NCBI RefSeq assembly: GCF_000971135.1
Contig: NZ_BBLW01000006.1
Span: forward strand, 1 to 64,000
Direction of reading: 5' to 3'
DNA length: 64,000 nucleotides
Source of the DNA: Demequina phytophila
GTDB taxonomy: Bacteria; Actinomycetota; Actinomycetes; Actinomycetales; Demequinaceae
The position numbers and the translations under genes are program-made. Positions 1,194-60,951 of the stretch are shown one piece after another (the first letter of the stretch is position 1; each line of letters begins with the position of its first letter). The notes beneath the pieces were generated by a model. That model made no database searches. It was not told where the DNA came from and was given only the letters and a program-made list of their open reading frames with translations.

Positions 1194-2618
1194 TCAGGAG
1201 TCCGCGGCGAGCGACCAGCGGGCGCCGTCGGCGGCGTCCGCGATGACGATCCCCGCGCCGGCCAGCCGGTCGCGGATCGCGTCCGCCGTGCCCCAGTCCT
1301 TCGCGGCCCGGGCGGCGGCGCGCGCCTCGATATCCGCCTTGACCAGGAAGTCGAGCGCGCCCATCGCGGAGCTCGAGGCCCCGGCCCTCTCCCCCGCCCA
1401 CTCGGGCGCGGCGGGGTCCAGCCCCAGGACGTCGAGCATCGCCCGGGCGGCCAGGAGCGCGGAGGCGACCGCGGCATCGTCCCCCGCGGTGAGCGCGGCG
1501 TTGCCGGCCCGCACCGTCTCGTGGATCACCGCGAGGGCGCGCGGGACGCCCAGGTCGTCGTCCATGGCCTCGACGAACGCGTCGGGCAGCGCCGCGGCCG
1601 CGACGTCCGCGGAGGACACCGCGCCCACCTTCTCCGACGCGCGCGCCACGAAGCTCTGGAAGCGCGCCCACTGCGCGGACGCCTCGTCGAGCGTGGACGG
1701 CGAGTACTCGAGCATCGAGCGGTAGTGGACGGCGGCGAGCGCGAGGCGCAGGGCGGCGGGCTCGTGCGCGGCGAGCACCTCGGAGACCAGCAGGCCGTTG
1801 CCGAGCGACTTCGACATCTTCGCGCCGGACTGCGTCACCCACGCGGAGTGCATCCACAGGTGAGCGAAGCCGTAGCCGGCGGCGCGGGACTGCGCCTGCT
1901 CGTTCTCGTGGTGCGGGAAGCGCAGGTCGAGGCCGCCGCCGTGGATGTCGAACTCGTCGCCCAGGTAGCGCTGCGACATCGCCGAGCACTCGATGTGCCA
2001 GCCCGGACGCCCCGGACCCCACGGGGAGTCCCAGGACGCGGTGTCGGGCTCGCCGTCCTTGCGGGCCTTCCACAGCGCGAAGTCGTGAGGGTCGCGCTTG
2101 TCCTCGGTGGGCGAGTCCGTGGCCGGCGAGAGGTCGTCGAGCGCCTGGCGCGTGAGCGTGCCGTAGTCCGCGTAGGAGCGCACGTCGAAGTACACCGAGC
2201 CGGCCTTCTCATATGCGTGGCCGGCGTCGATGAGGCGCGAGATGATCGCGACGATCTCCGGGATGTGCCCCGTCGCGCGCGGCTCCGCGGCCGGCGGCTT
2301 CACGCCCACCGCGGCGTACGCGGCCTGGAACTCGCGCTCGTGCTTGAGGGCCCAGGCCCACCACTCCCAGCCGGCGTCGGCGGCCTTCGCGAGGGTCTTG
2401 TCGTCGATGTCGGTGACGTTGCGCACCAGGGTCACCTGGTAGCCGGAGCGCTCGAGCCAGCGCTGCAGCACGTCGAACGCGACGGCGCTGCGCAGGTGGC
2501 CCACGTGCGGCGCGCTCTGCACCGTGGGACCGCACAGGTAGATGCCCACCTTGCCGGGGGTGAGCGGCGTGAAGGCGCGCTCGTCGCGGGTGGCGGTGTC
2601 GTACAGGTGCAGGGTCAC
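1194..2618 (-). CDS. cysS: Cysteinyl-tRNA synthetase
   Basis: The 474-residue class I aminoacyl-tRNA synthetase charges tRNA-Cys. The HIGH-type motif appears as HVGH around residue 38-41, the KMSKS loop as [10 protein letters not shown] around residue 270, and the zinc-site elements LCGPTVQ (near 30) and ECSAMS are present. Full length matches the family. The upstream neighbours on the same strand are ispF, ispD and carD, a standard actinobacterial block. A copy of the dispersed motif at 1474 encodes GDDA in the C-terminal helical domain. Confidence 0.96.
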
Positions 2619-2696
2619 GCGCCCAGGCTACCGGTCGGGTGCCTGGAGGGACGATGCGGTGGTCCCGTTCGCGCCGTGGCGCGCGCGGCCGCGGTG

Positions 2697-3170
2697 TCAG
2701 CCCGCGACGATGAGCGCCGTTGCGATGGCCGCGATGCCCTCGCCGCGGCCCGTGAGCCCGAGCCCGTCGGTGGTGGTGCCGGCCACCGTCACGGGCGCCC
2801 CGCACGCGGCGGACAGCGCCGCCTCCGCCTCCGCGCGCCGGGGCGCGAGCTTGGGCCGGTTGCCGATCACCTGGACGCCCACGTTCCCGATCTCGAAGCC
2901 CGCCTCACGCACCAGCCGCGCCGACTCCGCGAGCAGCGCGACCCCGGCGGCGCCCGCCCACTCGGGACGCGAGGTCCCGAAGTTCGAGCCCAGGTCTCCC
3001 AGGCCCGCGGCGGACAGCAGCGCGTCGCAGGCGGCGTGCGCCGCGACGTCCGCGTCCGAGTGCCCCTCGAGGCCCGGCTCGCCCGGCCACTCCAGCCCCG
3101 CGACCATGAGGGGGCGGTCGCCGCCGAACGCGTGCACGTCCACGCCGATGCCGGTCCGGGGCAGGTTCAC
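2697..3170 (-). CDS. ispF: 2-C-methyl-D-erythritol 2,4-cyclodiphosphate synthase
   Basis: The 157-residue IspF catalyses the cyclodiphosphate step of the MEP isoprenoid pathway. The metal-binding start GIGVDVHAF and the segment [17 protein letters not shown] are visible, and the length is normal for the family. The GTG start at 3170 overlaps the ispD stop by 4 bp (GTGA), which indicates translational coupling; the longer frame upstream is only overlap with ispD. Confidence 0.95.
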
Positions 3171-3853
3171 ACGGTCTCCTCTGCGGGCGCGGACCGAACC
3201 GCGATGTGCTCGGCCAGCGCGAGGTCGCCGGCGTGGGTGATCTTGACGCCCCACTCGTGCCCGTCGATGGCGACCACGCGGTAGCCGAGGGCACGCGCGA
3301 GGGTGGCGTCGTCGGTCGCCTCGGCGCCGCCGCGCGCGTGCGCGTCGAGCAGCACGGACGCGCGGAACGCCTGCGGGGTCTGGACGATGCGGAACCCGGC
3401 ACGGTCGACCGGGTCGCCGAGCGCGCCGTCGGGGCCGGGCGCGGTCACGAGGGTGTCGACCACCGGGACCACGGGGATGGCGCCGTCCGCGCCGTCCTCC
3501 ACCGCCGCGGCGACCGCCCGCATGGTGGCCTCGGGCTGGAAGGCCCGCGCGGCATCGTGCACCAGGACCACGTCGTCGGGTGCCGGCGCGAGGGCCGCGA
3601 GGCCCGCCGACACGGACCCCTGGCGCGTGTCCGCGCCGGGGACGATGCTCGCGTCGAGTCCCTCGAGCGCCTCACGGAAGGCGTCGAGATGGGTGGGCGG
3701 CGCCGTCACCACCACGCGCGAGGCGACCCCCAGCGCGCGCCGCACGGCGTGCGTCACCAGGGGTTCGCCCGCGACGCGCACGAGCGCCTTGGGAAGGTCG
3801 GAACCCAGCCGGGTCCCGTAGCCGGCGGCCGTGACCACGGCCGCGACGGTCAC
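3167..3853 (-). CDS. ispD: 2-C-methyl-D-erythritol 4-phosphate cytidylyltransferase
   Basis: The 228-residue IspD transfers CMP to methylerythritol phosphate, the reaction two steps before IspF. The nucleotide-binding loop [16 protein letters not shown] is at residues 7-22, [10 protein letters not shown] marks the metal and substrate site, and [10 protein letters not shown] matches the family. The GTG start at 3853 overlaps the carD stop by 4 bp, so carD, ispD and ispF look like one coupled transcript. A dispersed-motif copy at 3640 encodes the SIVPG segment. Confidence 0.95.
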
Positions 3854-4332
3854 GAGGCGAGGACCTCGTCGAGACGGGCCTCGGCGGCCTGCTCGTCGCA
3901 CTTCTCGGCGAGCGCGAGCTCCGAGACGAGGATCTGGCGCGCCTTGTGCAGCATGCGCTTCTCGCCGGCGGACAGGCCCTTGTCGGTGTCGCGGCGGGAC
4001 AGGTCGCGGACCACCTCGGCCACGCGGATCACGTCGCCGGATGCGAGCTTCTCGACGTTGGCCTTGTAGCGGCGCGACCAGTTGGTGGGCTCCTCGATGT
4101 AGGGCTCGCGCAGCACGCCGAACACCTTCTCGAGACCCGCCTGGTCGACGACGTCGCGGACACCCACCAGGTCGACGTTCTCGGCCGGCACCTCGATGGT
4201 CAGGTCACCCTGCGCTACCTTGAGCTTGAGGTAGGTCTTCTCCTCGCCGCGGATGATGCGCTTCTTGATGTCCTGGATCTGGGCCGCCCCATGGTGGGGG
4301 TAGACGACGGTCTCGCCAACGACGAAGTTCAT
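3850..4332 (-). CDS. carD: CarD-type RNA polymerase-binding regulator
   Basis: The 160-residue protein begins [15 protein letters not shown], the start of the CarD/TRCF RNA-polymerase interaction domain, which stabilises open complexes at rRNA and other promoters. The length equals mycobacterial CarD. The ATG at 4332 has an AAGGGGA ribosome-binding site at the right distance; longer in-frame starts read into the promoter region and are not family-like. Its 4333-4562 upstream region is shared with the divergent lipoprotein gene and is locally AT-richer than its surroundings. Confidence 0.95.
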
Positions 4333-5060: not shown

Positions 5061-5167
5061 GTGCACCTCTCCACACAACTGAACCGGAGCATCGTCCCCT
5101 ACCAGGCATGATGCGAAGAAGCGGGGCCGATGCACACGCACCGGCCCCGCTTCTGTGTGGAGAGGTG
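5061..5167. repeat. Family B/C palindrome around a terminator
   Basis: Left arm GTGCACCTCTCCACAC (5061-5076), with a second left-arm-like unit at 5042-5055, and right arm GTGTGGAGAGGTG (5155-5167). The centre holds a dispersed-motif copy (5089) and a perfect hairpin. The element sits between the converging lipoprotein and pstB genes. Confidence 0.75.
5117..5154. terminator. Bidirectional hairpin terminator
   Basis: AGAAGCGGGGCCG (5117-5129) and CGGCCCCGCTTCT (5142-5154) form a perfect 13-bp stem with a 12-nt loop. It lies between two converging genes, so it can end both the lipoprotein transcript and the pst transcript. No long T-run follows, as is common in high-GC actinobacteria. Confidence 0.75.
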
Positions 5168-9802: not shown

Positions 9803-9892
9803 CGCGGGACGATGCCCCGGCCGGTTCGGGCGCCGCCGCGGGACGATGCCCGGGCCGAGTCGGGTGGAGGCGCGCACCCCGTCGCGGCGCGC

Positions 9893-11762: not shown

Positions 11763-11837
11763 TGCCCGCCCGGGTGACGCGCGCATCGTCCCTCCGCCCG
11801 ATGCCAGACTGGAGCCCTTGAGTCTGTAAGGAGAGTC

Positions 11838-12515: not shown

Positions 12516-12545
12516 GAAGCCCCCGACCGGACGGTCGGGGGCTTC
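12516..12545 (+). terminator. phoU terminator
   Basis: GAAGCCCCCGACC (12516-12528) and GGTCGGGGGCTTC (12533-12545) form a perfect 13-bp stem with a GGAC tetraloop, followed by GTCGTT. It lies 18 bp after the phoU stop. Confidence 0.9.
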
Positions 12546-12554
12546 GTCGTTCAG

Positions 12555-12608
12555 GGGGACGATGCGCGGGCCGGGCCTCGTACGAGGCGCAACCGGCGCA
12601 TCGTCCCG
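12555..12608. repeat. Inverted pair of the GGGACGATGCGC motif
   Basis: Two copies of the dispersed motif face each other: GGGACGATGCGC (12556-12567) and GCGCATCGTCCC (12596-12607). The centre contains the smaller palindrome GCCTCGTACGAGGC. The structure sits between the phoU terminator and the gpmA stop and is the cleanest example of the motif acting as the arm of a palindrome. Confidence 0.8.
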
Positions 12609-12612
12609 GCTG

Positions 12613-13574: not shown

Positions 13575-13862
13575 GTGGCTGAACTGACCCCCGCCGCGCT
13601 GCTCCAGGCCGCCGCCGACCCGGTCCGCTGGGCCGTGCTCGAGCGCCTCGCCGCGGGGCCGCGTTGCGTGTGCGACCTCCAGGAGCACGCCGACGTCTCG
13701 AGCACCCTGCTCAGCTACCACCTCAAGGTGCTGCGCGAGGCCGGGCTCGTCACCTCGTCGCGCCGCGGCCGCTGGATCGACTACGCCCTGGCGACCGACG
13801 CATCGTCCCGGCTCGCCGCCGCCCTCCCGGTCTCCCGCGCCCTGGTGGAGGCGACGCCGTGA
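13575..13862 (+). CDS. ArsR-family metalloregulator
   Basis: The 95-residue winged-helix repressor carries the CVCDL motif at residues 33-37, the paired Cys site used by ArsR/SmtB proteins to sense As(III) or soft metals on the recognition helix, followed by the helix HADVSSTLLSYHLKVLREAGLV. GTG start with no clear ribosome-binding site, so the message may be nearly leaderless. Its stop overlaps the permease GTG by 4 bp. A dispersed-motif copy (13800) encodes ASS near the C-terminus. Confidence 0.9.
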   Translation: MAELTPAALLQAAADPVRWAVLERLAAGPRCVCDLQEHADVSSTLLSYHLKVLREAGLVTSSRRGRWIDYALATDASSRLAAALPVSRALVEATP

Positions 13863-15301: not shown

Positions 15302-16378
15302 TCAGACCTCGATCACGCAGGCCGGGCTCTCGATCTCGCCCTCCGCGTACGGAAGGTCGACCACGTCGCCGATGCCCTGCTCCGCCGGGAGCCCCAGCAC
15401 GTCCGCGAGCGCGAAGGAGCGGGCGCGATGGCCGCGCTCCTCCCCCACCACCAGCCGGTCGCCCAGGACCGCGAAGTAGCGGGGCCAATGCCCGGCGTCG
15501 AACGCGCCGCGGTACGTGAGCTCACCCTCCGGGGCGACGTCGAACACGCTGATGACGTCCGCGCCGCGCACGCTCACCAGCAGCACGTCGCCGGCCCCGC
15601 GCGAGGCGCCCGGCACCAGCAGCACGTGCGCGTCCTGCAGCTCGGCGCTGCGCGGCGCCGCGAGGGTCGACGGGGCCTCCGCGATCACCTCGGCGGTCGC
15701 GGACTCGGGATCCCAGCGCAGCGTCCGCAGGACGTGGTCCAGCTCGCACGTCACGTAGAGCAGGTGCCCCCGCACGGCCACGTGACGCGGCCCGGCGCCG
15801 GGCGGCAGGATCGCGGCGATGCCGTCGGGGTCGAGCAGCCCGTCGGCGAGCACCTGGTACCGGCGCAGCTCGTCGGTCCCGAGGTCCGCGACGAGCACGT
15901 GCCGCCCGCCCGGTGCGAACAGCGCCGAGTGCGCGTGCGGGCCCTCCTGGCGGTCCTCCACCGGGCCCGAGCCCGCGTGCCCGAGCAGCTGGGCCGGCGC
16001 ATCGTCCCTGGGTAGCCCGTCCATCCCGAGCGGGACGACCGCGAGGTCGCCGCTCGAGTAGTGGCTGACGTAGAGCGTGAGCGCGTCGGGCGCGAGGAGC
16101 AGGTGGCAGGCGTCCGCGCCACCGGTCGCCAGGGTCGCGACGATGCGCGGCGCGTCCGGGCGTCTCACGTCGAGCACCACCACCTGGCTCGCGGGCAGCT
16201 CGCACGCGACGTACACCAGCGGCAGCGTCGGGTGCGCGACCAGGAAGGAGGGCGCGGGCAGCTCGAGGACCCGCTCCGCGTGCGGCGACTCAGGCACCGC
16301 CGACCGGAAGATCCCCTCGCCCAGCCCCGCCGGCGTGCCGAGCCCGGCCGCCGGATACGTGCCCCAGAGGAGCGTCAC
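15302..16378 (-). CDS. Lactonase-family beta-propeller protein
   Basis: The 358-residue protein has the repeated blade pattern of the 6-phosphogluconolactonase/3-carboxymuconate cyclase-like family (PF10282): HPTLPLVYVACEL, LLLAPDALTLYVSHYSSGDLAVV, HSALFAPGGRHVLVADLGTDELRRY and GAGPRHVAVRGHLLYVTCELD. A role in the pentose phosphate pathway is possible but unproven, since many members act on other lactones. There is no signal peptide. The GTG start at 16378 overlaps the lsr2 stop by 4 bp, an unusual pairing. Confidence 0.85.
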   Translation of the reverse strand: MTLLWGTYPAAGLGTPAGLGEGIFRSAVPESPHAERVLELPAPSFLVAHPTLPLVYVACELPASQVVVLDVRRPDAPRIVATLATGGADACHLLLAPDALTLYVSHYSSGDLAVVPLGMDGLPRDDAPAQLLGHAGSGPVEDRQEGPHAHSALFAPGGRHVLVADLGTDELRRYQVLADGLLDPDGIAAILPPGAGPRHVAVRGHLLYVTCELDHVLRTLRWDPESATAEVIAEAPSTLAAPRSAELQDAHVLLVPGASRGAGDVLLVSVRGADVISVFDVAPEGELTYRGAFDAGHWPRYFAVLGDRLVVGEERGHRARSFALADVLGLPAEQGIGDVVDLPYAEGEIESPACVIEV

Positions 16379-16701
16379 TGTGCGGCGTCGTAGGCCTCGC
16401 GGACCTTGGCCGGGATGCGGCCGCGCTCGGGGACGTCCACGCCGTTCTCCTTCGCCCAGGTGCGGATCGCCGCGGCGTCGCCGCCGGACGATGCACGGGT
16501 CGCCTTGCGCGCGGCGGCCTTGCGGGTCGCGGTGCGGCGGCCGGCGGAGATCCACGGCGCGAGCGCGTCGCGGAGGGCGGAGGCGTTGGCCTCGTTGAGG
16601 TCGACCTCGTACGACGAGCCGTCGAGCGAGAATGCGACCGTCTCCGTCGCGACGGAGCCGTCGATGTCATCGACCAGAACGACCTGAACCTTCTGCGCCA
16701 C
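16375..16701 (-). CDS. lsr2: Lsr2-family nucleoid-associated protein
   Basis: The 108-residue Lsr2 has the N-terminal dimerisation domain (VQVVLVDDIDGS, residues 4-15), a basic Ala/Lys/Arg linker and the C-terminal DNA-binding domain ending RGRIPAKVREAYDAA, whose RGR core inserts in the minor groove of AT-rich DNA. I chose the GTG at 16701, which has an AAAGGAAA site; a GTG five codons upstream lacks one. A dispersed-motif copy encodes the linker residues ASS. The 162-bp upstream region is AT-richer than average and holds its promoter. Confidence 0.95.
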   Translation of the reverse strand: MAQKVQVVLVDDIDGSVATETVAFSLDGSSYEVDLNEANASALRDALAPWISAGRRTATRKAAARKATRASSGGDAAAIRTWAKENGVDVPERGRIPAKVREAYDAAQ

Positions 16702-16863: not shown

Positions 16864-17079
16864 CTAGGCCTGGCGAGGCTCCTGCGAGGAGCCCGCGGGA
16901 GCATCGTCCCTGGTGTCCGGCGTGCCGGCCTGCTCCGCCGCAGCCCTCGCGTCCTCCTCGGCGAGAGCGGCACGCTCATTTCTGTCCGCACGGATCACGG
17001 AACGCATCGCGAACCAGAAGATCGCGCCCACGCCGATCGACGGGATGATGCCGATCGCGACGGCCTGCCAGGTCTCCAC
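16864..17079 (-). CDS. Small single-pass membrane protein upstream of lsr2
   Basis: The 71-residue protein has one hydrophobic segment (about residues 4-24) followed by a charged, Ala/Glu-rich cytosolic tail. Similar small proteins sit next to lysS in related actinobacteria, without known function. The tail includes the peptide TRDDAPAGSS, encoded by a dispersed-motif copy at 16901. Ten bp separate it from the lysS stop. Confidence 0.8.
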   Translation of the reverse strand: METWQAVAIGIIPSIGVGAIFWFAMRSVIRADRNERAALAEEDARAAAEQAGTPDTRDDAPAGSSQEPRQA

Positions 17080-17089: not shown

Positions 17090-20096
<3,007 letters not shown>

Positions 20097-20155: not shown

Positions 20156-20203
20156 ACCCGTGCATCGTCCCCGCGAGATGTGATTCGGGACCAAGGTCGG
20201 AAT

Positions 20204-20260: not shown

Positions 20261-21943
20261 ATGCGCATCCTGGTGATCGGTGGAGTGGCAGGCGGCATGA
20301 GCGCCGCGGCCCGCGCGCGCCGCCTCGACGAGCACGCGGAGATCATCGTGCTCGAGAAGGGCAAGTACGTCTCGTTCGCGAACTGCGGCCTGCCCTATCA
20401 CGTGAGCGGCGAGATCGAGCAGGACTCGTACCTGCTGCTGCACACGCCGGAGACCCTCCGCGCGTCGCTCGACCTCGACGTCCGCACCGAGCACGAGGTC
20501 ATCGGAATCGACCGCACCGCGCAGACCGTCCTGGTCGCGACCCCCGCCGGCACCGAGACGCTGTCCTACGACGCGCTGGTGCTCTCCCCCGGTGCTGATG
20601 CGATCGTCCCGCCGATCCCCGGCATGGACCTGCCCGAGGTCACCCACCTGCGCACCGTCGACGAGGCGCGCTCGCTCGCTGCCCGCACCGCCACCGCGAA
20701 GCGCGCGGTCGTGATGGGCGCCGGGTTCATCGGCCTCGAGACCGCCGAGGCGTTCCGCCACCGCGGCCTCGACGTCACCCTGGTCGAGCTGGCCCCGCAG
20801 GTGCTCCCGCCGCTCGCGCCCGAGATGAGCGCGCTCGTCGAGAAGGAGCTGCGCGCGAACGGCGTGGACGTGCGCACGGGCGTCGCGGCGACCGGCGTGC
20901 GCGCCGGCTCCGCCGGGGACGATGCCGCGGTCACCGTCTCGCTCGGCGACGGCACCGAGGTGGCGGCGGACATCGTGGTGGTGTCCGTGGGCGTGCGGCC
21001 GAACTCGTCGCTCGCGGCCGAGGCGGGCCTCGAGGTGACCGACCGCGGCGCGATCGTGGTCGACGAGCTCCAGCGCACCTCGGACGCGCACATCTGGGCC
21101 GCGGGGGACGCGATCGCCGTGCGCCACGGCGTCACCGGCCAGGTGGGCCCGGTGCCGCTCGCCGGCCCCGCGAACCGTCAGGGCCGCCGCGCGGCGGACT
21201 CGATCATGGGTCGCACCGACAAGGCACAGCCGGTGCTCGGGACCGCCATCGTGCGCGCGTTCGGGCTGACGGCCGCCATGACGGGCGCGTCGCCGCGCAT
21301 GCTGGACGCGGCCGGCATCGAGTACTTCGTGGTCCACACGCACCCCGGCAACCACGCGGGCTACTTCCCCGGCTCGCAGATCCTGCACCTCATGGGCGTG
21401 TTCTCTCCCACCGGGGAGCTGCTGGGTGCCCAGGCCGTGGGCCCGGACGGCGCCGACAAGCGCATCGACGTGCTCGCCACGGCGCTGCGGGCGGGCTTCT
21501 CTGCCGACGACATCGCGGAGCTCGAGCTCGCATACGCACCCCCCTTCGGGTCCGCCAAGGACCCCATCAACATGCTGGGCTTCGCCGCGCAGAACGTCAT
21601 CAACGGCACCACCACCCTGTGGACGGCCGCAGACCTCCCGTGGGTCGTGGACAACGCGCTGCTCCTCGACGTGCGCAGCGAGCGCGAGTACGCCGGCGGC
21701 CACCTGCCGACGGCGGTCAACCTGCCGCACACTCACCTGCGCGAGTACATCGAGGGTGTGAAGCAGCTCGCGGCCGGGCGGCCGATCCGCGTGATCTGCG
21801 CCTCGGGCGTGCGCTCGTACTACGCGCACCGCGTCCTGAGCCAGCACGGCTTCGACTCGGCGACGTTCGACGGCGGCATGTTCACGCTGGTCGAGGCCGT
21901 CCCGGGCGTCGAGCTCGCGACGGGTGCGTTCCAGCCCGCCTGA
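20261..21943 (+). CDS. CoA-disulfide reductase with C-terminal rhodanese domain
   Basis: The 560-residue flavoprotein has an N-terminal FAD/NAD(P) disulfide-reductase fold (GGVAGGMSAAARARR at residues 6-20), the single active-site Cys in SFANCGLPYHVSG, a dimerisation domain, and a rhodanese domain from about residue 465 with the Cys loop ICASGVRS. Fusions of this type reduce CoA persulfides and polysulfides. An AAGGACC site precedes the ATG. The promoter carries a CstR-type operator. A dispersed-motif copy encodes AGDDAAV in a surface loop. Confidence 0.93.
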   Translation: MRILVIGGVAGGMSAAARARRLDEHAEIIVLEKGKYVSFANCGLPYHVSGEIEQDSYLLLHTPETLRASLDLDVRTEHEVIGIDRTAQTVLVATPAGTETLSYDALVLSPGADAIVPPIPGMDLPEVTHLRTVDEARSLAARTATAKRAVVMGAGFIGLETAEAFRHRGLDVTLVELAPQVLPPLAPEMSALVEKELRANGVDVRTGVAATGVRAGSAGDDAAVTVSLGDGTEVAADIVVVSVGVRPNSSLAAEAGLEVTDRGAIVVDELQRTSDAHIWAAGDAIAVRHGVTGQVGPVPLAGPANRQGRRAADSIMGRTDKAQPVLGTAIVRAFGLTAAMTGASPRMLDAAGIEYFVVHTHPGNHAGYFPGSQILHLMGVFSPTGELLGAQAVGPDGADKRIDVLATALRAGFSADDIAELELAYAPPFGSAKDPINMLGFAAQNVINGTTTLWTAADLPWVVDNALLLDVRSEREYAGGHLPTAVNLPHTHLREYIEGVKQLAAGRPIRVICASGVRSYYAHRVLSQHGFDSATFDGGMFTLVEAVPGVELATGAFQPA

Positions 21944-32476: not shown

Positions 32477-34531
<2,055 letters not shown>

Positions 34532-34748: not shown

Positions 34749-34770
34749 CGGTGGGGGGACGATGCGGCGG

Positions 34771-39478: not shown

Positions 39479-39569
39479 CTCCACACGGTTTCTGCAGCTG
39501 CCGGCCCGCTGGTCGGGCGTTACGTCGCGAGTTGCAGCGGAATGGACGATGCGGCGGCTGGGTGTGTGG
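39479..39569. repeat. Family D palindrome, copy 1
   Basis: The arms CTCCACACGG and GTGTGTGGA enclose GTCGGGCGTTACGTCGCGAG, then TTGCAGCGGAATGGACGATG. The last 60 bp are nearly identical to the copy at 40317-40413 in the same orientation, so the two copies flank the vapBC pair as direct repeats. Contains a dispersed-motif copy (39543). Confidence 0.8.
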
Positions 39570-40316: not shown

Positions 40317-40413
40317 GCGCTCCACACGGATTCTGCACCTGCGGGCCGGGTTGGTCGGGCGTTGCGGCGCGAGTTGCAGCGGAATGGACGATGCGGCGGC
40401 TGGGTGTGTGGAG
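40317..40413. repeat. Family D palindrome, copy 2
   Basis: GCGCTCCACACGGATTCTGC on the left and GTGTGTGGAG on the right. The interior resembles copy 1, and the whole resembles the inverted copies at 41394 and 41566. It contains a dispersed-motif copy (40386). It lies 126 bp before the second DUF559 gene and 90 bp from the vapB start; the remaining part of this 312-bp gap shows no other feature apart from promoter space. Confidence 0.8.
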
Positions 40414-41713: not shown

Positions 41714-43111
41714 TCACGGCCTCCCGATGAAGGGCATCATGTTGCCCGTCATCCAGGCGTACAGCGGGCGGATGCCGGCCGGCTTGGAGTAGTTGACCGC
41801 CTCCATGACCTGCCCGTTGCCGATGTAGATCGCCACGTGGAAGATCGTCGACGGGTCCGAGGTGTCCGTCGCGTAGAACACCAGGTCGCCCTCGCGGATC
41901 TGCGAGTAGGACAGGTGCGTGGTCGCGAGGTACTGGCTGCGCGAGGACCGCGTGATCCACTGCCCCGCCACCGACCAGCTCTCCGACGTCACGCCCGAGC
42001 AGTCGTACTTGGGGCCCGAGCCGCCCAGCAGGTACTCGCGCCCGACCAGCGTGACCGAGTGCTGCGCCGCCGTCACGCCCTGCGCCGCCGTCGAGTTCCA
42101 GCTGGTGCCGGGCGTCTCGGGCTTCGGGGTCGACGTGGTGGTCGGCTTGGGGGTGGAGGTCTTGGTGGGCGTCGGCTCCGGCTCGGACGTCTTGGTCGCG
42201 GTCGGCTTCGGCGTCGAGGTCTTCGTGGGCTTGGGCGTCGAGGTGGACGATGCGCTGGGCTTGGGGGTCGACGTCGGACGGGGCCGCGAGGCCTCCTCCG
42301 CGGCGGCGGCCTCCTCGGCCGCCTTCTGGCGCGCCTCGGCCTCGGCCTGCGCGGCGGCGGCACGCTCGGCCTCGAGGCCGGCCTGGCGCTGCTCCTCGAG
42401 CGCCACCGTCACACCCCGCAGCTCGGCCAGGCGCGACACCGCGTCCGCCCGCGTCTCGTTCGCGACGGCGACGGCCTCGTCGGCGTGGTCGCGGGCGTCC
42501 TGCGCCTCGGCGTACGCGGACTTGGCCTCCTCCGCGGCGGCAGCGGCGGACGTCGCGGCCTCGTCGGCGTAGGTGCGCATGGTCGACGCGACCAGCTCGG
42601 CGGCCTTGACGCGCTGCACCCACATGTCGGCCTCGTCGGAGCCGCGGTCGAACGCCTCGGTGCGGGCGATGACGTCGTCGACGGTCTCGGCGCCCACCAC
42701 GGCGCCGATCTGGCTCATCGAGCCCGAGTCCCGGTAGGCGGCCTGCGCGACGGACGCGAGGTTCCCGCGCGCCTCGGCGAGCTCCTTCCCCGCCTCGGCG
42801 GCGCGCTCGTTGGCGGCGTCCAACGTCTCCTCGGCGGCGTCCGACGCGTCCTGCGCGTCCGAGTAGTCCTCGCCCGCGAGCAGCGCGTTGGCCTCGGCCT
42901 TGTCGCGCGCCTCCGCGAGGGCGGCGATCGCGTTGTCGAGCTCGTCGATGCCGGCGGCGAGGTCGTTGGCGGCCGCGCGGGCCTCATCGATCTCGGCCTG
43001 GCCCGGGTAGTCCTCCGCACGCGCGTGGTTGGTGGGCCCCGCCACCACCACGGCGCCCGCCACCGCGAACATCGCCGCGAGCGCGAGCATGCGCTTCAGC
43101 CCTACCGTCAC
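41714..43111 (-). CDS. Secreted NlpC/P60 peptidoglycan hydrolase with coiled coil
   Basis: The 465-residue protein has a signal peptide (about residues 1-32), a long Ala/Glu-rich coiled coil (about 35-275), a Thr/Pro/Lys linker of repeated STPKP units (about 275-330) and a C-terminal NlpC/P60 domain with catalytic Cys in YDCSGVTS, the His in IFHVAIYIGNG and WMTGNMMPF at the end. It resembles RipA/RipC-type hydrolases that split cells. The GTG at 43111 has an AAGGGCGG site; another GTG six codons upstream (43129) lacks one. The dispersed motif at 42245 encodes SASST in the linker. Confidence 0.9.
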   Translation of the reverse strand: MTVGLKRMLALAAMFAVAGAVVVAGPTNHARAEDYPGQAEIDEARAAANDLAAGIDELDNAIAALAEARDKAEANALLAGEDYSDAQDASDAAEETLDAANERAAEAGKELAEARGNLASVAQAAYRDSGSMSQIGAVVGAETVDDVIARTEAFDRGSDEADMWVQRVKAAELVASTMRTYADEAATSAAAAAEEAKSAYAEAQDARDHADEAVAVANETRADAVSRLAELRGVTVALEEQRQAGLEAERAAAAQAEAEARQKAAEEAAAAEEASRPRPTSTPKPSASSTSTPKPTKTSTPKPTATKTSEPEPTPTKTSTPKPTTTSTPKPETPGTSWNSTAAQGVTAAQHSVTLVGREYLLGGSGPKYDCSGVTSESWSVAGQWITRSSRSQYLATTHLSYSQIREGDLVFYATDTSDPSTIFHVAIYIGNGQVMEAVNYSKPAGIRPLYAWMTGNMMPFIGRP

Positions 43112-43353
43112 GTCTACCGCCCTTGTCACATCAGTTCACATCTGTCACACGAGTCACGTCCGCCCCGATACTAGGCGGAACCCCCCGCATACGTGAAGCC
43201 CCCTGTGCCGCATCTCACGCCGGCGCATGGGGACCTCTCCCCCTGACATCGGCGCGCGTACACGCGGACTTGACCCCCGCATCGTCCACCCTGGACAAAC
43301 CGGGTCTTCCGCCCATCCCGCACCGTGACTACTCTGGCCGCGAGGGGGCAGGC

Positions 43354-44130: not shown

Positions 44131-44199
44131 GGACGATGCGGCGGTCGGGTCTCCCGGCGTCGCGCCTCGCGCGCACGCGCGCCCTCTAGGCTGAGCGCC

Positions 44200-45407: not shown

Positions 45408-45501
45408 TTCGCTCCGCACGGTTTCAGTTCCGACACGCCGCCCAGCACGGACGATGCGCGGGCCGGCCCCGCGTGTCGCAGTCCAGACCGTGCGGAGCGA
45501 A
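45408..45501. repeat. Family A palindrome, copy 4
   Basis: The left arm TTCGCTCCGCACGGTTTCAG and right arm GACCGTGCGGAGCGAA span 94 bp. The interior contains a dispersed-motif copy (45449), CCGACACGCC and CCGCGTGTCGC. It follows the metX copy 1 stop by 11 bp. Confidence 0.8.
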
Positions 45502-46784: not shown

Positions 46785-47558
46785 TCACCCCAGCTCCTGG
46801 ATCACCCTCTCCGCAATGGCCGCGTGCCCGTCGTCGTTCACATGCTGCCCATCACCCGCGTCGAAGCTCTCATCCAGCACGCGGGGCTCGAGCAGCGAGA
46901 TGTACTCGGCCCCGACGGCCTCGGCCGCGTCGCGCACCGCCTGGTTGAAGTCCCGCTGCCAGGAGTCCTCGGAGAATGGCCACGAGGGTCCGACCGCCAC
47001 GATCCGCGCGTCGGGGAACCGCTCAGCGGCTGCCTCGAACGTCCCCGCGATCGCCTCGGCGACGGCACCCGAGTCCGCGCCCCACGCGTCGGTGTCGCTC
47101 TGCCCGCCGGCGATCACCACCACGTCCGGCTCGACCCCGTCGCGCGCCGCCTCCGCGATCATGTCCGAATAGGGCGGGCAGTCGTCGAGACCGCAGCTGT
47201 CGAACGTGCCGGAGGTGGCGTACCCCGTGCCGCCGCGGCCGTAGTTGGCCTCCTCCCAGCCCTCGTCGACGGCGACCAGCGAGGTCCACCGCTTGGACTC
47301 CGGCGCCGCGCCCACGCCCACCGTGTACGAGTCGCCGATGAACAGCGCCACCTGCACGGACGCCGTCGGCGACGGCGTCGCCACGCCTACCGCCGTGAGG
47401 TCCTCGGTGGAATCGGCGCGGACGGGGGCCCCGGCATCGTCCCCCCGCGCGCTGAGGGCGACCGCCACCACCCCGGCGACCGCCAGCACCACCAACAGCG
47501 CCCCCCACACCGGAAGCCCCGCCCATTCGCGCGTGAAGAACGCGCCCACGCGGCTCAT
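46785..47558 (-). CDS. Membrane-anchored SGNH/GDSL hydrolase, paralog 2
   Basis: The 257-residue protein has one N-terminal membrane segment (about residues 15-37), a linker containing ARGDDAGAP (dispersed motif at 47434), and an SGNH domain with FIGDSYTVGVGA, YGRGGTGYA, AGGQSDTD and GQHVNDDGH. In block III the Asn of the usual GGxND is Ser-Asp here, so the oxyanion Asn may be missing, unlike in both paralogs. The ATG overlaps the upstream paralog's stop by 4 bp. Confidence 0.85.
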   Translation of the reverse strand: MSRVGAFFTREWAGLPVWGALLVVLAVAGVVAVALSARGDDAGAPVRADSTEDLTAVGVATPSPTASVQVALFIGDSYTVGVGAAPESKRWTSLVAVDEGWEEANYGRGGTGYATSGTFDSCGLDDCPPYSDMIAEAARDGVEPDVVVIAGGQSDTDAWGADSGAVAEAIAGTFEAAAERFPDARIVAVGPSWPFSEDSWQRDFNQAVRDAAEAVGAEYISLLEPRVLDESFDAGDGQHVNDDGHAAIAERVIQELG

Positions 47559-48310: not shown

Positions 48311-48458
48311 GGCGTCCCCCTCGCCCCCGCGGCCAGCCTACAAAGCGGATGGGGCTATGCAAATGTCCGATACGTGACAATTTCGTAAGGAATGCCAGGC
48401 AGGGGGACGATGCTCGGGTTGCGTGGCGCTCCCCGTGGCACTCCCAGCGGGGTGAGGC

Positions 48459-51532: not shown

Positions 51533-52885
51533 ATGACCAACCCCGCCTACGCCTTCGAGACCCTCCAGATCCACGCCGGCCAGACCCCCGACGCGGAGAC
51601 CGGCGCCCGCGCCCTCCCCATCTACCAGACCACGTCCTTCGTCTTCGAGGACACCCACCAGGCCGCGGCCCGCTTCGCGCTCGGCGAGCTCGGCCCGATC
51701 TACACCCGCCTGGGCAACCCCACCACCGAGGCCGTCGAGAACCGCATCGCCGCGCTCGAGGGCGGCGTCGGCGCCCTCCTCGTCGCATCCGGATCCGCCG
51801 CGAACACCCTCGCGATCCAGAACCTCGCGCAGGCCGGCGACCACATCGTCGCTAGCCCCTCCCTCTACGGCGGCTCGTACAACCTGTTCCAGCACACGCT
51901 CCCCCGCTTCGGCATCGAGGTCACCTTCGTCGACAACCCCGACGACCCCGCCGCCTGGGCCCGAGCAATCAAGCCCAATACCAAGGCCTTCTTCGGCGAG
52001 TCCATCTCCAACCCCAAGCAGGACCTCCTCGACATCGAGGCCGTCGCCGCAGTAGCCCACGGACACGGCATCCCCCTCATCGTCGACAACACCGTCGCCA
52101 GCCCGTACCTCATCAACCCCATCGCCTGGGGCGCGGACATCGTCACCCACTCCGCCACCAAGTACCTGGGCGGGCATGGCACCGCGATCGGCGGCGTGAT
52201 CGTCGACGCGGGCACGTTCGACTACGCGCAGCACCCTGACCGCTTCCCCGCCTTCAACTCCCCCGACCCGAGCTACAACGGCCTCGTCTACGCCCGCGAC
52301 CTCGGCGTCGACAGCCCCCTGGGCGCCAACCTCGCCTACATCCTCAAGGCCCGCGTCCAGCTGCTGCGCGACACAGGTGCGTCGATCAGCCCGTTCAACG
52401 CGTTCCTCATCGCCCAGGGCATCGAGACCCTCAGCCTCCGCGTCGAGCGCCACGTCGAGAACGCGAAGAAGGTCGCCGACTTCCTCGAGGGCCACCCCCA
52501 GGTCGAGTCCGTCGCCTACAGCGGCCTGAGCAGCAGCCCGTGGCACCACCTCCAGCGCAAGTACGCCCCCAAGGGCGGCGGCGCGGTCCTCGCCTTCGAC
52601 ATTCGCGGCGGCAAGGAGGCGGGCCAGGCGTTCGTCGACGCGCTCGAGCTGCACTCCCTGGTGGCGAACATCGGCGACGTCCGCTCGCTCGCCATCCACC
52701 CCGCCACCACCACGCATTCGCAGCTCACGGAGTCGCAGCAGCGCGACGCCGGCGTCACCCCCGGCCTGGTCCGCCTCTCGGTGGGCATCGAGCACATCGA
52801 TGACATCCTGGGCGACCTCGGCACCGGCTTCGAGGCCGCGGCGGCCACGGCCGCCACGCGGGACGATGCGGCGGTCGCCTCGTGA
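51533..52885 (+). CDS. metY: O-acetylhomoserine sulfhydrylase
   Basis: The 450-residue PLP enzyme makes homocysteine from O-acetylhomoserine and sulfide. The PLP Lys is in HSATKYLGGHGTAIGG; PIYQTTSFVF, YTRLGNPTTEAVE and SGSAANTLAI are typical of MetY. An AGGAGCC site precedes the ATG. It overlaps metX copy 2 by 4 bp. The last residues TRDDAAVAS come from a dispersed-motif copy (52861). Confidence 0.95.
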   Translation: MTNPAYAFETLQIHAGQTPDAETGARALPIYQTTSFVFEDTHQAAARFALGELGPIYTRLGNPTTEAVENRIAALEGGVGALLVASGSAANTLAIQNLAQAGDHIVASPSLYGGSYNLFQHTLPRFGIEVTFVDNPDDPAAWARAIKPNTKAFFGESISNPKQDLLDIEAVAAVAHGHGIPLIVDNTVASPYLINPIAWGADIVTHSATKYLGGHGTAIGGVIVDAGTFDYAQHPDRFPAFNSPDPSYNGLVYARDLGVDSPLGANLAYILKARVQLLRDTGASISPFNAFLIAQGIETLSLRVERHVENAKKVADFLEGHPQVESVAYSGLSSSPWHHLQRKYAPKGGGAVLAFDIRGGKEAGQAFVDALELHSLVANIGDVRSLAIHPATTTHSQLTESQQRDAGVTPGLVRLSVGIEHIDDILGDLGTGFEAAAATAATRDDAAVAS

Positions 52886-54084
52886 GCGACCACGTCGAGA
52901 CCACCTGGGATCCGGTGGGCCGGACGCCGAAGCCGATCCCGGCATCGTCCGCCTGGCGCCCGGGCGACCACCCCGGGAACCGGAGGTTCGTGGACCTGGG
53001 GTGGCTGCCGCTCGAGGCGGACCCGCGCGGCGGCATCGACGTCACGCTCGCGTACGAGACGTGGGGCACCCTCAACGCCGACGGCACCAACGCCATTTAC
53101 GTGGCGCACGCCTTCACGGGCGACAGCCACGTCGCGGGCGAGCGCGAAGAGGGCCATCTCACGGGCGGCTGGTGGAACGGGCTCGTCGGGCCGGGCAAGC
53201 CGATCGACACGAACCGGTACTTCGTGGTGAGCGCGAACGTGCTGGGTGGATGCCAGGGCTCCACGGGGCCCGCGCACCCGCACCCGGAGGACGGGCGGCC
53301 GTGGGGCTCGCAGTTCCCGTACGTCACGCTGCACGACATGGTGGTCGCCGAGGCCCGCCTCGCCGACCACCTCGGGATCGACGCGTGGGCGCTCGTGATC
53401 GGGCCGTCGATGGGCGGGATGCGTGCGGTCGAGTGGGCGGCGAGCTTCCCGGAGCGGGTACGCGCGATCGGGGCGATCGGCGCGACGGCCGCCACCACCG
53501 CGGACCAGATCGCGTGGCACGCGACGCAGGGCGCGGCCATCCGGCTGGACCCGCACTTCCGCGACGGCGACTACTACGACGCCGCGCCGGGCGAGGGCCC
53601 GCACACGGGGCTCGGGATCGCGCGGGCGATCGCGCACACCACCTACCGTTCGGGGCCGGAGCTCAACGCGCGGTTCGGCCGGGACGCGCAGGACGGCGAC
53701 GTGCTGCGGCCGGAGGGGATCTTCGCTGTGGAGTCCTACCTGGACCATCACGCGGACAAGCTCGCGCGCCGCTTCGACGCGAACACGTACCTGCGGCTGC
53801 TGCACGCGATCAACACGCACGACGTGGGCCGCGGACGCGGCGGCGTCGAGGCCGCGCTCGCGCGCTACGACGGCGAGGCTTTGGTGGTCGCGATCGACTC
53901 CGACCGGCTCTACCCGCTCGCCGACTCGGAGCGGCTCGCGGCGGCGCTCCCCCGCTGCGAGGGCGTCACGCTGCTCCACTCGGAGGTGGGGCACGACGGC
54001 TTCCTGGTCGAGGGATCAGGGTTGGACGATGCGGTGCGCGTCATCCTCGCGAAGGTAGAGGAGGGCGTGAGGGTGGGCCGATAG
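52882..54084 (+). CDS. metX: Homoserine O-acetyltransferase, copy 2
   Basis: The 400-residue enzyme supplies the substrate of MetY and is coupled to it (GTGA overlap). Catalytic residues are in GPSMGGMRAVEW, DSDRLYP and GHDGFLVE. It aligns end to end with copy 1 at 44200, including the leader IPASSAWRPGDHPG against IPASAAWREGDHPG; the extra Ser here comes from a dispersed-motif copy (52942). A second copy encodes LDDAVRVI near the end. Confidence 0.94.
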   Translation: MSDHVETTWDPVGRTPKPIPASSAWRPGDHPGNRRFVDLGWLPLEADPRGGIDVTLAYETWGTLNADGTNAIYVAHAFTGDSHVAGEREEGHLTGGWWNGLVGPGKPIDTNRYFVVSANVLGGCQGSTGPAHPHPEDGRPWGSQFPYVTLHDMVVAEARLADHLGIDAWALVIGPSMGGMRAVEWAASFPERVRAIGAIGATAATTADQIAWHATQGAAIRLDPHFRDGDYYDAAPGEGPHTGLGIARAIAHTTYRSGPELNARFGRDAQDGDVLRPEGIFAVESYLDHHADKLARRFDANTYLRLLHAINTHDVGRGRGGVEAALARYDGEALVVAIDSDRLYPLADSERLAAALPRCEGVTLLHSEVGHDGFLVEGSGLDDAVRVILAKVEEGVRVGR

Positions 54085-54128: not shown

Positions 54129-54133
54129 GGCCG

Positions 54134-56804: not shown

Positions 56805-57754
56805 CGCGGGTCTCCGTCGAGAATCGACGCGTCGGTCACGCCGCGACGCGCCAGCACGCGGCCCCAGAGAGCGCGAGGTGTGGCGCGCACACCCCGGACG
56901 ATGCGCGCCCACCGCCCGCGGATCGCCGCGCCTCGGCCCGCGGGCACCTCGGGATGGACCCGTCGAAACTCGGACTCGCGTGGCCACATCATGCGGACGA
57001 CCATGCCGGGCTTCGCGCGCCAGTTCGCGCGACTGATGAGGACCAGCCACTGAGCTGTCGTTTCACCACGACCGCCCACGCGCGCCCGCCATGCGTCAAG
57101 CGCGGGATCGGCGCCATGAGGCGTCACCGGAGGAAGCGCCACGCACAGACGGTCCAGCACTGGCCGCGCAGTGTCCGCCGCCCCACCCGTAATCGCAAGC
57201 GCCACCACATCCGCGCGAGCGATGTCATTGAGCCGAGGCAACACCTCATCCACCAGACGGCGGATCTCAGCGACGTGCCGCGGCGTCTGCGAGGGCGTCC
57301 TGAGCGCGTGGAGAGCCGCGATGAGGATCGCGCCGGAGCGGTCGACCATGTCGACCTCGACGTCCGCAAGCGCCAAGGGCTGTCGGCGCTGCCACAACTC
57401 GTCGAAGACGTGCTGCGGGGCAGCGAGAAATCCGGGGAACTGGACGTGCGCGTCGATGTCACACGGCCAGCCGTCGTGGATCAGTGTCACCGAGTGGATC
57501 GCCGTGGGGCCCATTCCGTCACCGGCCGGTCGCTCGTGCCAGCCGCACCCCCGAAGCGCGTCGACGTACGCGTCGAATCCGTCTGGAGACACCATCACGT
57601 CGGCGTCGGCGCTGACGCGTTCCGCTCGCAGGCCATGGGCTGCAGCGCTCGGCCCCTTGATGACCAGCGCGCGAATGCCCGCACGCCTCGCGACGTCGAC
57701 CGCGAGCGCGTGCGCGAGCGGCACGGCATCCGCGATCGCGAGCGCGGCGTTCAC
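56801..57754 (-). CDS. Nucleotidyltransferase-family protein (NTP_transf_5 type)
   Basis: The 317-residue protein shows the pol-beta-like core IKGPSAAAHG followed by SADADVMV, the acidic pair expected to hold metal, and a later acidic strand PCDIDAHVQF. Members of this family accompany HPr-kinase-like and PqqD-like proteins in peptide-modification and polysaccharide loci. The GTG start overlaps PqqD-like 2 by 4 bp. The C-terminal part is Arg/Trp-rich; a dispersed-motif copy (56896) encodes IVRG there. Confidence 0.82.
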   Translation of the reverse strand: MNAALAIADAVPLAHALAVDVARRAGIRALVIKGPSAAAHGLRAERVSADADVMVSPDGFDAYVDALRGCGWHERPAGDGMGPTAIHSVTLIHDGWPCDIDAHVQFPGFLAAPQHVFDELWQRRQPLALADVEVDMVDRSGAILIAALHALRTPSQTPRHVAEIRRLVDEVLPRLNDIARADVVALAITGGAADTARPVLDRLCVALPPVTPHGADPALDAWRARVGGRGETTAQWLVLISRANWRAKPGMVVRMMWPRESEFRRVHPEVPAGRGAAIRGRWARIVRGVRATPRALWGRVLARRGVTDASILDGDPR

Positions 57755-59459: not shown

Positions 59460-59460
59460 G

Positions 59461-60951
59461 TCAGGCGCGCGGTCGCTCGGCGGGCGTGTCGGACCCGATG
59501 ACGTCGTCCCACGGGACTGCGCCACCGGCGCGCGGCGCCGTTGCGGGGGACGATGCGCCGGTGTCGTTCTTGCCTCGCTTGCGGTCGCCCTCGGTCGAGT
59601 AGTCGTAGGCGTACGCGTACGCGTCCTTGTAGGCACCCTTGCGCGGCATGGCGTCGACGATGATGCCGAGCGCGCGGCCGTTGACGCGGTCGAGGTTCTG
59701 CAGCGCACGGTCGAGGACGTCGATGGTCGTGCGTCCCGAGGATGCGACGACGAGCGCGCCGTCGGTGCGCGCGGTGAGCACAGCGGCATCAGTGACGGGG
59801 ATGAGCGGCGGCGTGTCGATGAGGATGAGCGCGTCCTGCGGGAAGCTATGGAGCAGTTTGTGCATCGCGTCCGAGGCAAGGAGCTCCGACGGGTTCGGCG
59901 GGATCGCGCCGGAGGCCAGCACGTAGAAGTGGTCGGTGTCGCCGTAGGGCTGGAGCACGTCTTGGGCGCGCGCACGCCCCACGAGAACGTCCGTCAGGCC
60001 TGCATCTCCGACGAGACCAAGGTTCTTCGCCACCGTGGGCCGACGGAGGTCGGCGTCGATCAAGACCGCGTCGCGACCCGACTCGGCGACGGCCTCGGCG
60101 AGCTTGATGATGGTGGTCGACTTGCCATCGCCGGGAAGCGAAGAAGTGACGACAATCACTCGCGGCGGGTTGTCGACGTCCATGAACTGGAGGTTCGTGC
60201 GAACCTGGCGGATGGCCTCGGTCATCGCGAAATCGGACTTCGCGTTCGCGACGCCTTTCTTGGCGATCGCGTCGTCGTACGGCAAGGCGCCCAGCACCGG
60301 GATGTCGAACTCGCGCTCGACATCCTCAGGCTTTCGCAGCCGGCGGTCGAGCGTGGACTTGATGAGCGCGTAGCCCACGCCGAGCGCCAGACCGACCAGT
60401 AGTCCAAGCGCCACCGCGAGTTTGACGTTCGGGCTGGACGGGGCGCCAGGAAGCACAGCACTGTCGAGAGTTTGAAGGCCAACCACGGACTGGGCGTCAC
60501 CGTCCCCGGCGCCCGAGTTCTCGATGTCTGCGACGGCCTTCGTCATACCGGCGATCCACGCCTCGACGAGGTCGCGGGCCTCCTCGGGGCTGGAGCCGTT
60601 GGCTGCAACGCGAAGGACCGCGGTATCGAGGGGGTTCGACACCGTCACCCGCGCGACGAGTCCGTCGGGGCTCGACGCAAGGCCCAGTTCGTCGATCGCG
60701 TACGCGGCGACCTTGCGAGACTTGGCAATGTCGAGATAGCTCTTGACCCGAGACTTGGCGTAGTTGTCGCCAACTAGCGCGCTACCAAGGTCTTCACTCG
60801 CTCCCGTCGTGATAATGGCCGAGCCTGTCGCGGTGTAGACCTTGGGTTGCGTGAGCGTCCAACCGAATGCGGCAGCGCCGCCGAGGACGGTGATGAGCAC
60901 GATCACCACCCAATGCGCGCGGAACACACGCATGTAGTCCTGGAGTTCCAT
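59461..60951 (-). CDS. Polysaccharide co-polymerase / BY-type tyrosine kinase
   Basis: The 496-residue Wzc-like protein has an N-terminal Wzz domain between two helices (about residues 12-32 and 178-198) and a C-terminal P-loop kinase: Walker A LPGDGKST near 272-279, Walker A' LIDADLRR near 297-304, Walker B ILIDTPP near 377, and a tyrosine cluster at 441-451 (YKDAYAYAYDY) for autophosphorylation. It controls exopolysaccharide chain length and export. The disordered tail carries GASSPATA from a dispersed-motif copy (59548). Confidence 0.92.
   Translation of the reverse strand: MELQDYMRVFRAHWVVIVLITVLGGAAAFGWTLTQPKVYTATGSAIITTGASEDLGSALVGDNYAKSRVKSYLDIAKSRKVAAYAIDELGLASSPDGLVARVTVSNPLDTAVLRVAANGSSPEEARDLVEAWIAGMTKAVADIENSGAGDGDAQSVVGLQTLDSAVLPGAPSSPNVKLAVALGLLVGLALGVGYALIKSTLDRRLRKPEDVEREFDIPVLGALPYDDAIAKKGVANAKSDFAMTEAIRQVRTNLQFMDVDNPPRVIVVTSSLPGDGKSTTIIKLAEAVAESGRDAVLIDADLRRPTVAKNLGLVGDAGLTDVLVGRARAQDVLQPYGDTDHFYVLASGAIPPNPSELLASDAMHKLLHSFPQDALILIDTPPLIPVTDAAVLTARTDGALVVASSGRTTIDVLDRALQNLDRVNGRALGIIVDAMPRKGAYKDAYAYAYDYSTEGDRKRGKNDTGASSPATAPRAGGAVPWDDVIGSDTPAERPRA

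Follow-up and report, generated by a model that had tools for sequence, protein, structure and literature searches.

A dense, dialect-forming DNA word of Demequina as the probable core of a DNA-uptake signal

According to the passage of PMC12616744 that deals with them, Neisseriaceae and Pasteurellaceae are the only families known to use DNA words at the binding step of uptake. The DNA uptake sequence (DUS) of Neisseriaceae is described, in the parts of the sources concerned, as a word of 10-12 bases with hundreds to thousands of copies and with dialects tracking phylogeny, which occurs in inverted pairs associated with terminators and is missing from genomic islands (PMC3630211, PMC7371117); absence of the primary DUS from islands is an established neisserial sign (PMC7371117). 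The uptake signal sequence (USS) of Pasteurellaceae combines a short core and an extension, has no general orientation bias in the genome and is commoner in one orientation within reading frames (PMC2346458, PMC12616744). Here we report on the word GGGACGATGC, which is dispersed through a stretch of 64,000 nucleotides of contig NZ_BBLW01000006.1 of Demequina phytophila (the window) and through the remainder of that genome, and which, with its looser extension R-GGGACGATGC-G-S-S-GG-Y-C-G, is rather probably the core of an actinobacterial DNA-uptake signal. The word agrees with uptake words in most of the features tested, namely an excess over the Markov expectation, dialects following phylogeny, inverted-pair hairpins, permissive placement with a frame preference, no orientation bias, absence from an island and the presence of competence genes, and these features, dialects included, are published marks of DUS and USS. 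It differs from DUS in its unrelated sequence, in its GC-rich Gram-positive host with Tad/Flp genes, and in its copy number, a typical primary DUS having 2,000-6,000 copies and the words of Demequina fewer (PMC7371117); the receptor of the Neisseria DUS is the pilin ComP (PMC6370729). From USS it is set apart by sequence and phylum, the receptor proposed there being ComN, a type IV minor pilin. No uptake word in actinobacteria was reported among the matches listed in a literature search that ran without preprints and most subscription journals.

An earlier note on the window had counted 41 exact copies of the 9-base word GGACGATGC (24 plus, 17 minus) and given the consensus GGGACGATGCSSSGG. 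Our recount yielded 42 (25 plus, 17 minus), which leaves its minus-strand figure in place and corrects the plus-strand figure and the total, and which compares with a mean of 2.08 and a largest value of 8 in 100 dinucleotide-preserving shuffles. The GGG of 28 copies was recovered (28 of 42), as was the continuation of most copies as SSSGG (23 of 42, a bare majority), and the consensus is correct but shorter than the motif given above. Intergenic placement also stood, with 18 of the 42 copies in place of the 16 counted before; here and below, copies are assigned as intergenic or in/touching a called gene by our own codon-usage gene-calling script, and intergenic fractions are approximate. In the whole assembly (G000; 2,984,965 bases, 12 contigs) GGGACGATGC has 903 copies (440 + 463) and its reversed-word control 10. 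A comparison with a Markov model, which the earlier note had set as a check for the complete genome, was made on a sample of 464 kb, consisting of the window and twenty 20-kb stretches of the same genome, and GGGACGATGC was the top over-represented 10-mer, with 149 copies against 4.4 expected from a fourth-order model, a more than 30-fold excess. Since the counts are not near the Markov expectation and the enrichment is not limited to the window, the dispersed word is real and genome-wide. GGGACGATGC is not palindromic (its reverse complement is GCATCGTCCC), unlike HIP1 (highly iterated palindrome 1) of cyanobacteria, which resembles it in being a highly iterated short word. That it might be a restriction-modification or DNA-methylation site held at high density would suit the fact that sequence-specific DNA marks vary between lineages; such sites, however, are usually avoided in genomes, and a 10-base non-palindromic word with a long soft extension and an excess of this size is unlike them, which leaves this explanation with next to no credence.

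In order to see how the word is distributed, 37 Demequina genomes (G000 and 36 relatives) and 22 genomes of other families in the order were compared, and four dialects were named, D1 (GGGACGATGC), D2 (GGCCGATGCG), D3 (GGGCCGATGC) and D4 (GCCCGACGCT). D1 is present in 452 to 945 copies in 13 of the 37 Demequina and in at most 81 in the other 24, and does not exceed 33 copies in the 22 genomes outside. Markov scans of 100-kb samples from eight Demequina without D1 yielded GGCCGATGCG in G034 (55 vs 3.1 expected) and G014 (30 vs 2.6), GGCCGATGCT in G010 (19 vs 0.8) and GCCCGACGCT in G009 (30 vs 1.1), and no clear word in G001, G003, G018 and G012; the alternative words GCCGACGCT in G003 (35 vs 8.6) and GGCATCGGC in G018 (36 vs 9.9) were weak and were not retained. 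Over whole genomes, D2 reaches a maximum of 1,203 copies (G034; at most 120 outside the genus), D3 numbers 656 in G010 and 572 in G036 (at most 53 outside), and D4 908 in G009 and 254 in G012 (at most 56 outside). With a cut-off of at least 250 copies, picked after the counts were seen, 27 of the 37 Demequina carry a word (13 D1, 12 D2 or D3, 2 D4), and ten are without a strong one (G001, G003, G005, G007, G013, G018, G021, G027, G032 and G035, of which G005 is 85% complete). D2 words are also abundant in some D1 genomes (483 copies in G022, 298 in G002, 293 in G011 and 258 in G020). Aligned on their cores, the words are GGGACGATGC, SGGCCGATGC, GGCCGATGCT and GCCCGACGCT; a 3' GG block followed by a pyrimidine is common to most dialects, though G010 and G034 show it less clearly. 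Immediately past the core the base varies by species, being mostly G in the genome of the window, C in G026 and T in G010 and G009. The LysS of the window is most similar to that of Demequina, with 27 Demequina loci leading the 80 matches. A single-gene tree of LysS DNA, with four outgroups beside the window and 27 named Demequina loci, contains a supported clade (97/94) of 14 rows, of which 13, the window included, carry D1, and at least 6 changes of dialect state are needed on it; a one-clade constraint on all 14 D1 rows was not rejected (approximately unbiased test, p-AU 0.062). Among the 27 named genomes, which overlap the set of 37 and are not an independent sample, the counts agree, D1 having 452 to 945 copies in 13 and no more than 81 in any of the others. 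The distribution of the dialects is mostly clade-wise.

Conservation at orthologous sites, also named as a check in the earlier note, was found above expectation in several D1 relatives. With expected retention derived, crudely, from flank identity, the 9-mer is exact at 12 of 15 aligned window sites in D. silvatica (5.5 expected), 5 of 10 in D. lignilytica (1.5), 3 of 11 in D. pelophila (1.1), 2 of 8 in D. salsinemoris (0.3) and 9 of 13 in D. soli (0.9); the kept site at 45449, counted in D. silvatica, D. lignilytica and D. soli, is far from lysS and possibly a paralogous match. None of 6 aligned sites is exact in SYSU T00b26. Two D2 species likewise have no exact site among 7 and 6, and in one of them GGCCGATGC stands opposite 27318. 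When D1 words were aligned to D2 loci, 4 of 851 pairs were identical and the commonest single change was A3C (29 pairs, 10 distinct sites), which is the dialect difference between D1 and D2; in the reverse comparison 98 of 810 pairs were identical, with T7C commonest (32) and C3A second (31). These alignments are not independent, owing to common ancestry, and four control 9-mers aligned too seldom for comparison; conversion of one dialect into the other at aligned sites is suggestive only.

The placement of the word appears permissive. Of the 149 copies in the 464-kb sample, 71 are intergenic, 3 lie on a gene edge and 75 inside called genes, intergenic DNA being 13-14% of the sample; five other Demequina samples show a 1.3- to 2.9-fold enrichment between genes. 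Words occur at 2.02 per kb in same-direction gaps and at 2.07 in convergent gaps, and the 38 copies in same-direction gaps have a median position 24 bp past the upstream stop codon and 93 bp ahead of the next start, 26 of them running against and 12 with transcription. Within genes, the sense strand encodes GDDA or RDDA at 40 of the 75 copies, while at 21 ASS is read from the opposite strand, which places 61 in two of the six frames and 14 in the remaining four; coding copies thus use tolerant reading frames. Concentration in these frames, together with the copies at 39544 and 40386, which belong to a local duplication with near-identical flanks and show that not every copy in the window is independent, would fit the view that the copies are remnants of a dispersed repeat, such as repetitive extragenic palindromic (REP) elements or miniature inverted-repeat transposable elements (MITE), or a product of composition or codon bias. 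REP and MITE repeats, however, have a longer common unit, whereas conservation around the word fades by +17 (numbering starts at the first base of the core ACGATGC), and a dispersed repeat was rejected because flanks are not common to the copies. With the Markov and reversed-word controls far exceeded and so many copies lying between genes, an origin in repeats or composition is scarcely believable. Close pairs (9 to 60 bp) in the genome of the window comprise 13 inward, 3 outward and 3 same-way, against 3.5 expected in all, and five of the inward pairs share an exact spacing of 27 bp; the hairpin of one inward pair in the window (Table 1) has a folding energy of -44.1 kcal/mol (z -4.7) and was equalled in stability by 0 of 200 shuffles. 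Such hairpins, and the short distance of same-direction-gap copies from stop codons, could indicate that the word serves mainly as a transcription terminator or an RNA element, but the share of copies inside called genes, the fact that most copies are not in inverted pairs and a search of the window that gave no Rfam match make this very unlikely.

No significant strand bias was seen, with 38 vs 45 copies over 160 kb of C4 and 46 vs 35 over 144 kb of C7, and none in G026 when stretches were split by GC skew (19/28 in the positive, 13/20 in the negative and 28/21 in a third class). This bears on a possible replichore-polar motif, such as Chi, which acts in recombination, or the FtsK-orienting polar sequences (KOPS), at which FtsK is loaded. 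Chi and KOPS are short words at high density that are biased by replication direction, and Chi words vary between lineages; the density and length of GGGACGATGC are in a suitable range, and the D4 word in G009 shows weak strand heterogeneity between stretches (p 0.04). Because the bias is not seen, the replichore-polar reading is unsupported and we regard it as highly improbable; of the chromosome-organising or recombination site considered in the earlier note, only a strand-neutral form is kept below as a rival. The longest word-free stretch in the 144 kb of C7 runs from 59548 to 84328 (24,780 bp, at a mean spacing of about 1.8 kb) and has a GC content of 0.644 vs 0.717 for the sample. It encodes transposases (DDE_Tnp_1, rve/HTH_21), a GDP-mannose dehydratase, an epimerase-family protein, a sugar transferase, two Wzz-domain proteins and a polysaccharide pyruvyl transferase, and is apparently an acquired island. 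The next word-free stretches in size are of 8.8 and 7.6 kb, on C4; the observation of island absence concerns one 24.8-kb island.

The genome of the window also encodes the components expected of an import machine. In L181, comEA (SLBB and helix-hairpin-helix) adjoins comEC and holA, and a Tad/Flp cluster in L182 encodes a T2SSE ATPase, two T2SSF proteins, a TadE/G-like protein, two TadE-like proteins, one of them below the Pfam cut-off, and a Flp-like protein of 54 amino acids that is named by position and has no Pfam match; a DprA-family protein is encoded as well. ComEC was found in 57 and TadE in 58 of the 59 genomes searched, that of the window included. Micrococcus luteus, likewise an actinobacterium, has homologues of comEA and comEC and depends on its Flp pili for transformation; the passage concerned does not mention an uptake word for it (PMC6370729). 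ComEA and ComEC diverge rapidly between two D1 genomes, being 76.0% and 80.8% identical, vs 97.4% and 98.7% for the neighbours HolA and LepA (L181:7882-10963 vs L200), and TadE1 84.2% vs 97.7% for TadA (L182 vs L185). A separate observation is that ComEC matches in two pieces in the single-contig assemblies G009 (C1:2039413-2040200) and G026 (C1:423579-424363), through sequencing error or a broken gene.

Words with dialects extend beyond Demequina. Two genomes of one other genus, G056 and G077, probably belong to Microbacteriaceae, the LysS of G056 being 77% identical to that of a Microbacterium metagenome-assembled genome (MAG), a closeness equal to that of a Leifsonia. In their stretches (L223-L226 and L229-L248, with the named loci L107 and L111), CGGATGCCTCG occurs 100 times vs 3.1 expected in 340 kb of G056 and CGGATGCCGCG 52 times vs 2.6 in 140 kb of G077, and GATGC is common to the word sets of Demequina and of this second family. 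By strand, GGATGCCTC numbers 67 vs 69 in G056 and 11 vs 13 in G077, and it is one-sided in 2 of 17 G056 stretches (5 to 0 and 8 to 0). The form CGGATGCCNCG has 2,287 and 2,260 copies in G056 and G077 (controls 11 and 25), 369 in the Microbacterium MAG and 225 in a Microbacteriaceae MAG (controls 12 and 6), and 44 to 82 in six other named genomes (controls 6 to 40), while CGGATGCCTC reaches 70 or more in 25 of 25 genomes of the G056/G077 genus and at most 20 in 15 others. The intergenic excess in G056 is 1.7 fold, and the hairpin mark is absent there, since close pairs are 7 same-way to 1 inward. Pooled words from Brevibacterium and Glycomyces were dropped, since the loci are orthologues from a single region. 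Top 8-mers of single 17-kb loci are mostly noise; GGATGCGC in Leifsonia sp. Root227 (L112; 19 vs 3.1) and GAGGGATC in Leucobacter ruminantium (L094; 17 vs 1.7), each from one such locus, may be further words or noise.

Taken as the core of an uptake signal, the word would allow competent Demequina to bind and import free DNA that carries it better than word-less DNA, along a route which may lead from a Tad/Flp-type pilus over ComEA to the ComEC channel. Molecular drive, with imported strands entering the chromosome through homologous recombination, would then multiply the word and keep it in the genome; the same has been proposed for DUS in Neisseriaceae and for USS in Pasteurellaceae. A slow shift of receptor preference could give rise to lineage-specific dialects; candidate readers of the word are a TadE-like minor pilin or ComEA. 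Competence of Demequina, preference for the word in uptake and the identity of its reader are all three inferred. The reading of the word as an uptake word, offered in the earlier note, is strengthened by the dialects, their mostly clade-wise spread, the hairpin pairs, the absence from the island and the competence genes, which amount to strong circumstantial support.

Several observations weigh against this reading. Divergent gaps also hold words (1.33 per kb), and neither G014 (p 0.49) nor G010 (p 0.08) shows a significant preference for intergenic DNA. Clear inverted pairs were found only in the genome of the window; pairs are few in five other samples (1 to 7 each) and without clear orientation, and among the pairs of 13 named D1 loci 6 are inward, 7 same-way and 2 outward. 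One-mismatch copies of GGGACGATGC number 206 vs 105 expected by chance, which with 149 exact copies gives a ratio of 1:1.38, between two neisserial examples of 1:1.15 and 1:1.45 in the part of PMC3630211 that gives them. The surplus, however, is almost all at word position 1 (103 vs 17 expected), the other nine positions having 103 vs about 88; decayed copies of the core therefore show no clear excess, and this mark is weak. In the tree, SYSU T00b26 (L056) lies inside the D1 clade next to D. salsinemoris, yet it has 40 copies where the latter has 689 and seems to have lost the word naturally, and MAG Ww146 carries D1 outside the clade at an unresolved position. Word-poor Demequina keep the Tad genes (5 of 5) and comEA/comEC (4 of 4), some Tad clusters being split or cut by the stretch and the G012 stretch having no orthologous cluster; consequently gene content does not explain the word, and presence or absence of import genes was not supported as the cause of its loss. 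A literature search gave no report of competence in Demequina among the matches listed. Finally, Microbacterium was transformed by a foreign synthetic plasmid in mixed culture, according to the passage of PMC10257627 that describes it, which speaks for transformability and against a strictly self-only uptake in that genus.

Some observations would also be expected if the word were the binding site of a strand-neutral chromosomal protein, such as a nucleoid organiser, a repair or mismatch factor or a global regulator, whose co-evolution with its sites would yield lineage-specific variants. Such a protein would agree with the wide spread and the strand neutrality of the word, GATGC-bearing words in a second family would suit one that is old and shared, the retention of import genes in word-poor species is in keeping with it, and the lack of a clear excess of one-mismatch cores is as for a selected site. 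Nevertheless, an essential organiser should persist in close relatives, yet 10 of 37 genomes are without a strong word and SYSU T00b26 is without it beside D. salsinemoris, and hairpin pairs near gene ends and island absence are known for uptake words. We therefore regard a chromosomal-protein site as rather unlikely, though the main rival, and retain the DNA-uptake signal as our explanation.

Table 1. Copies of the 9-base word and associated features in the window (strand + or -; a dot where none applies).
Feature	Position	Strand	Context
GGACGATGC copy	1474..1482	-	in/touching called gene
GGACGATGC copy	2649..2657	+	intergenic
GGACGATGC copy	3382..3390	+	in/touching called gene
GGACGATGC copy	3640..3648	+	in/touching called gene
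GGACGATGC copy	5089..5097	-	intergenic
GGACGATGC copy	9807..9815	+	intergenic
GGACGATGC copy	9841..9849	+	intergenic
GGACGATGC copy	11783..11791	-	intergenic
GGACGATGC copy	12557..12565	+	intergenic; left arm of inverted pair
GGACGATGC copy	12598..12606	-	intergenic; right arm of inverted pair
hairpin of inverted word pair	12545..12612	.	between convergent called gene ends (11838-12497 +, 12613-13359 -)
GGACGATGC copy	13800..13808	-	in/touching called gene
GGACGATGC copy	15999..16007	-	in/touching called gene
GGACGATGC copy	16486..16494	+	in/touching called gene
GGACGATGC copy	16901..16909	-	intergenic
GGACGATGC copy	18705..18713	+	intergenic
GGACGATGC copy	20162..20170	-	intergenic
GGACGATGC copy	20917..20925	+	in/touching called gene
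GGACGATGC copy	23390..23398	-	in/touching called gene
GGACGATGC copy	25908..25916	+	in/touching called gene; aligned site exact in D. silvatica, D. lignilytica, D. pelophila, D. salsinemoris and D. soli
GGACGATGC copy	26826..26834	+	in/touching called gene
GGACGATGC copy	27318..27326	-	in/touching called gene; aligned site is GGCCGATGC in Demequina sp. NBRC 110051
GGACGATGC copy	28187..28195	+	in/touching called gene; inward pair with 28227
GGACGATGC copy	28227..28235	-	in/touching called gene; inward pair with 28187
GGACGATGC copy	31386..31394	+	in/touching called gene
GGACGATGC copy	31565..31573	-	in/touching called gene
GGACGATGC copy	32562..32570	-	in/touching called gene
GGACGATGC copy	34757..34765	+	intergenic
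GGACGATGC copy	37992..38000	+	in/touching called gene
GGACGATGC copy	38674..38682	-	in/touching called gene
GGACGATGC copy	39544..39552	+	intergenic; flanks duplicated at 40386
GGACGATGC copy	40386..40394	+	intergenic; flanks duplicated at 39544
GGACGATGC copy	42245..42253	+	in/touching called gene
GGACGATGC copy	43279..43287	-	intergenic
GGACGATGC copy	44131..44139	+	intergenic
GGACGATGC copy	45449..45457	+	intergenic
GGACGATGC copy	47434..47442	-	in/touching called gene
GGACGATGC copy	48405..48413	+	intergenic
GGACGATGC copy	52861..52869	+	in/touching called gene
GGACGATGC copy	52942..52950	-	in/touching called gene
GGACGATGC copy	54024..54032	+	in/touching called gene
GGACGATGC copy	56896..56904	+	intergenic
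GGACGATGC copy	59548..59556	+	in/touching called gene; last before word-free island
word-free stretch, left part	59557..64000	.	Wzz/ATPase, transposase (rve, HTH_21) and polysaccharide pyruvyl transferase matches; continues to C7:84328

It is conceivable, although we would not yet count on it, that uptake words are widespread in actinobacteria, being found at least in Demequinaceae and one further family (probably Microbacteriaceae), with dialects of an SGATGC-like core and with a putative receptor that is part of the Tad/Flp-ComEA machine. If this holds, DNA self-recognition would exist in Gram-positive bacteria and perhaps predate the split of these families. An uptake role of the word would in itself add a Gram-positive lineage to two Gram-negative families and mean that such words arose once more, with another type of pilus. 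Demequina, with its four or more dialects and its apparent losses, would let the co-evolution of word and receptor be tested within one genus, and tagged DNA would be predicted to transform these actinobacteria better than untagged DNA. The words may in addition be usable as a marker of foreign islands in these genomes.

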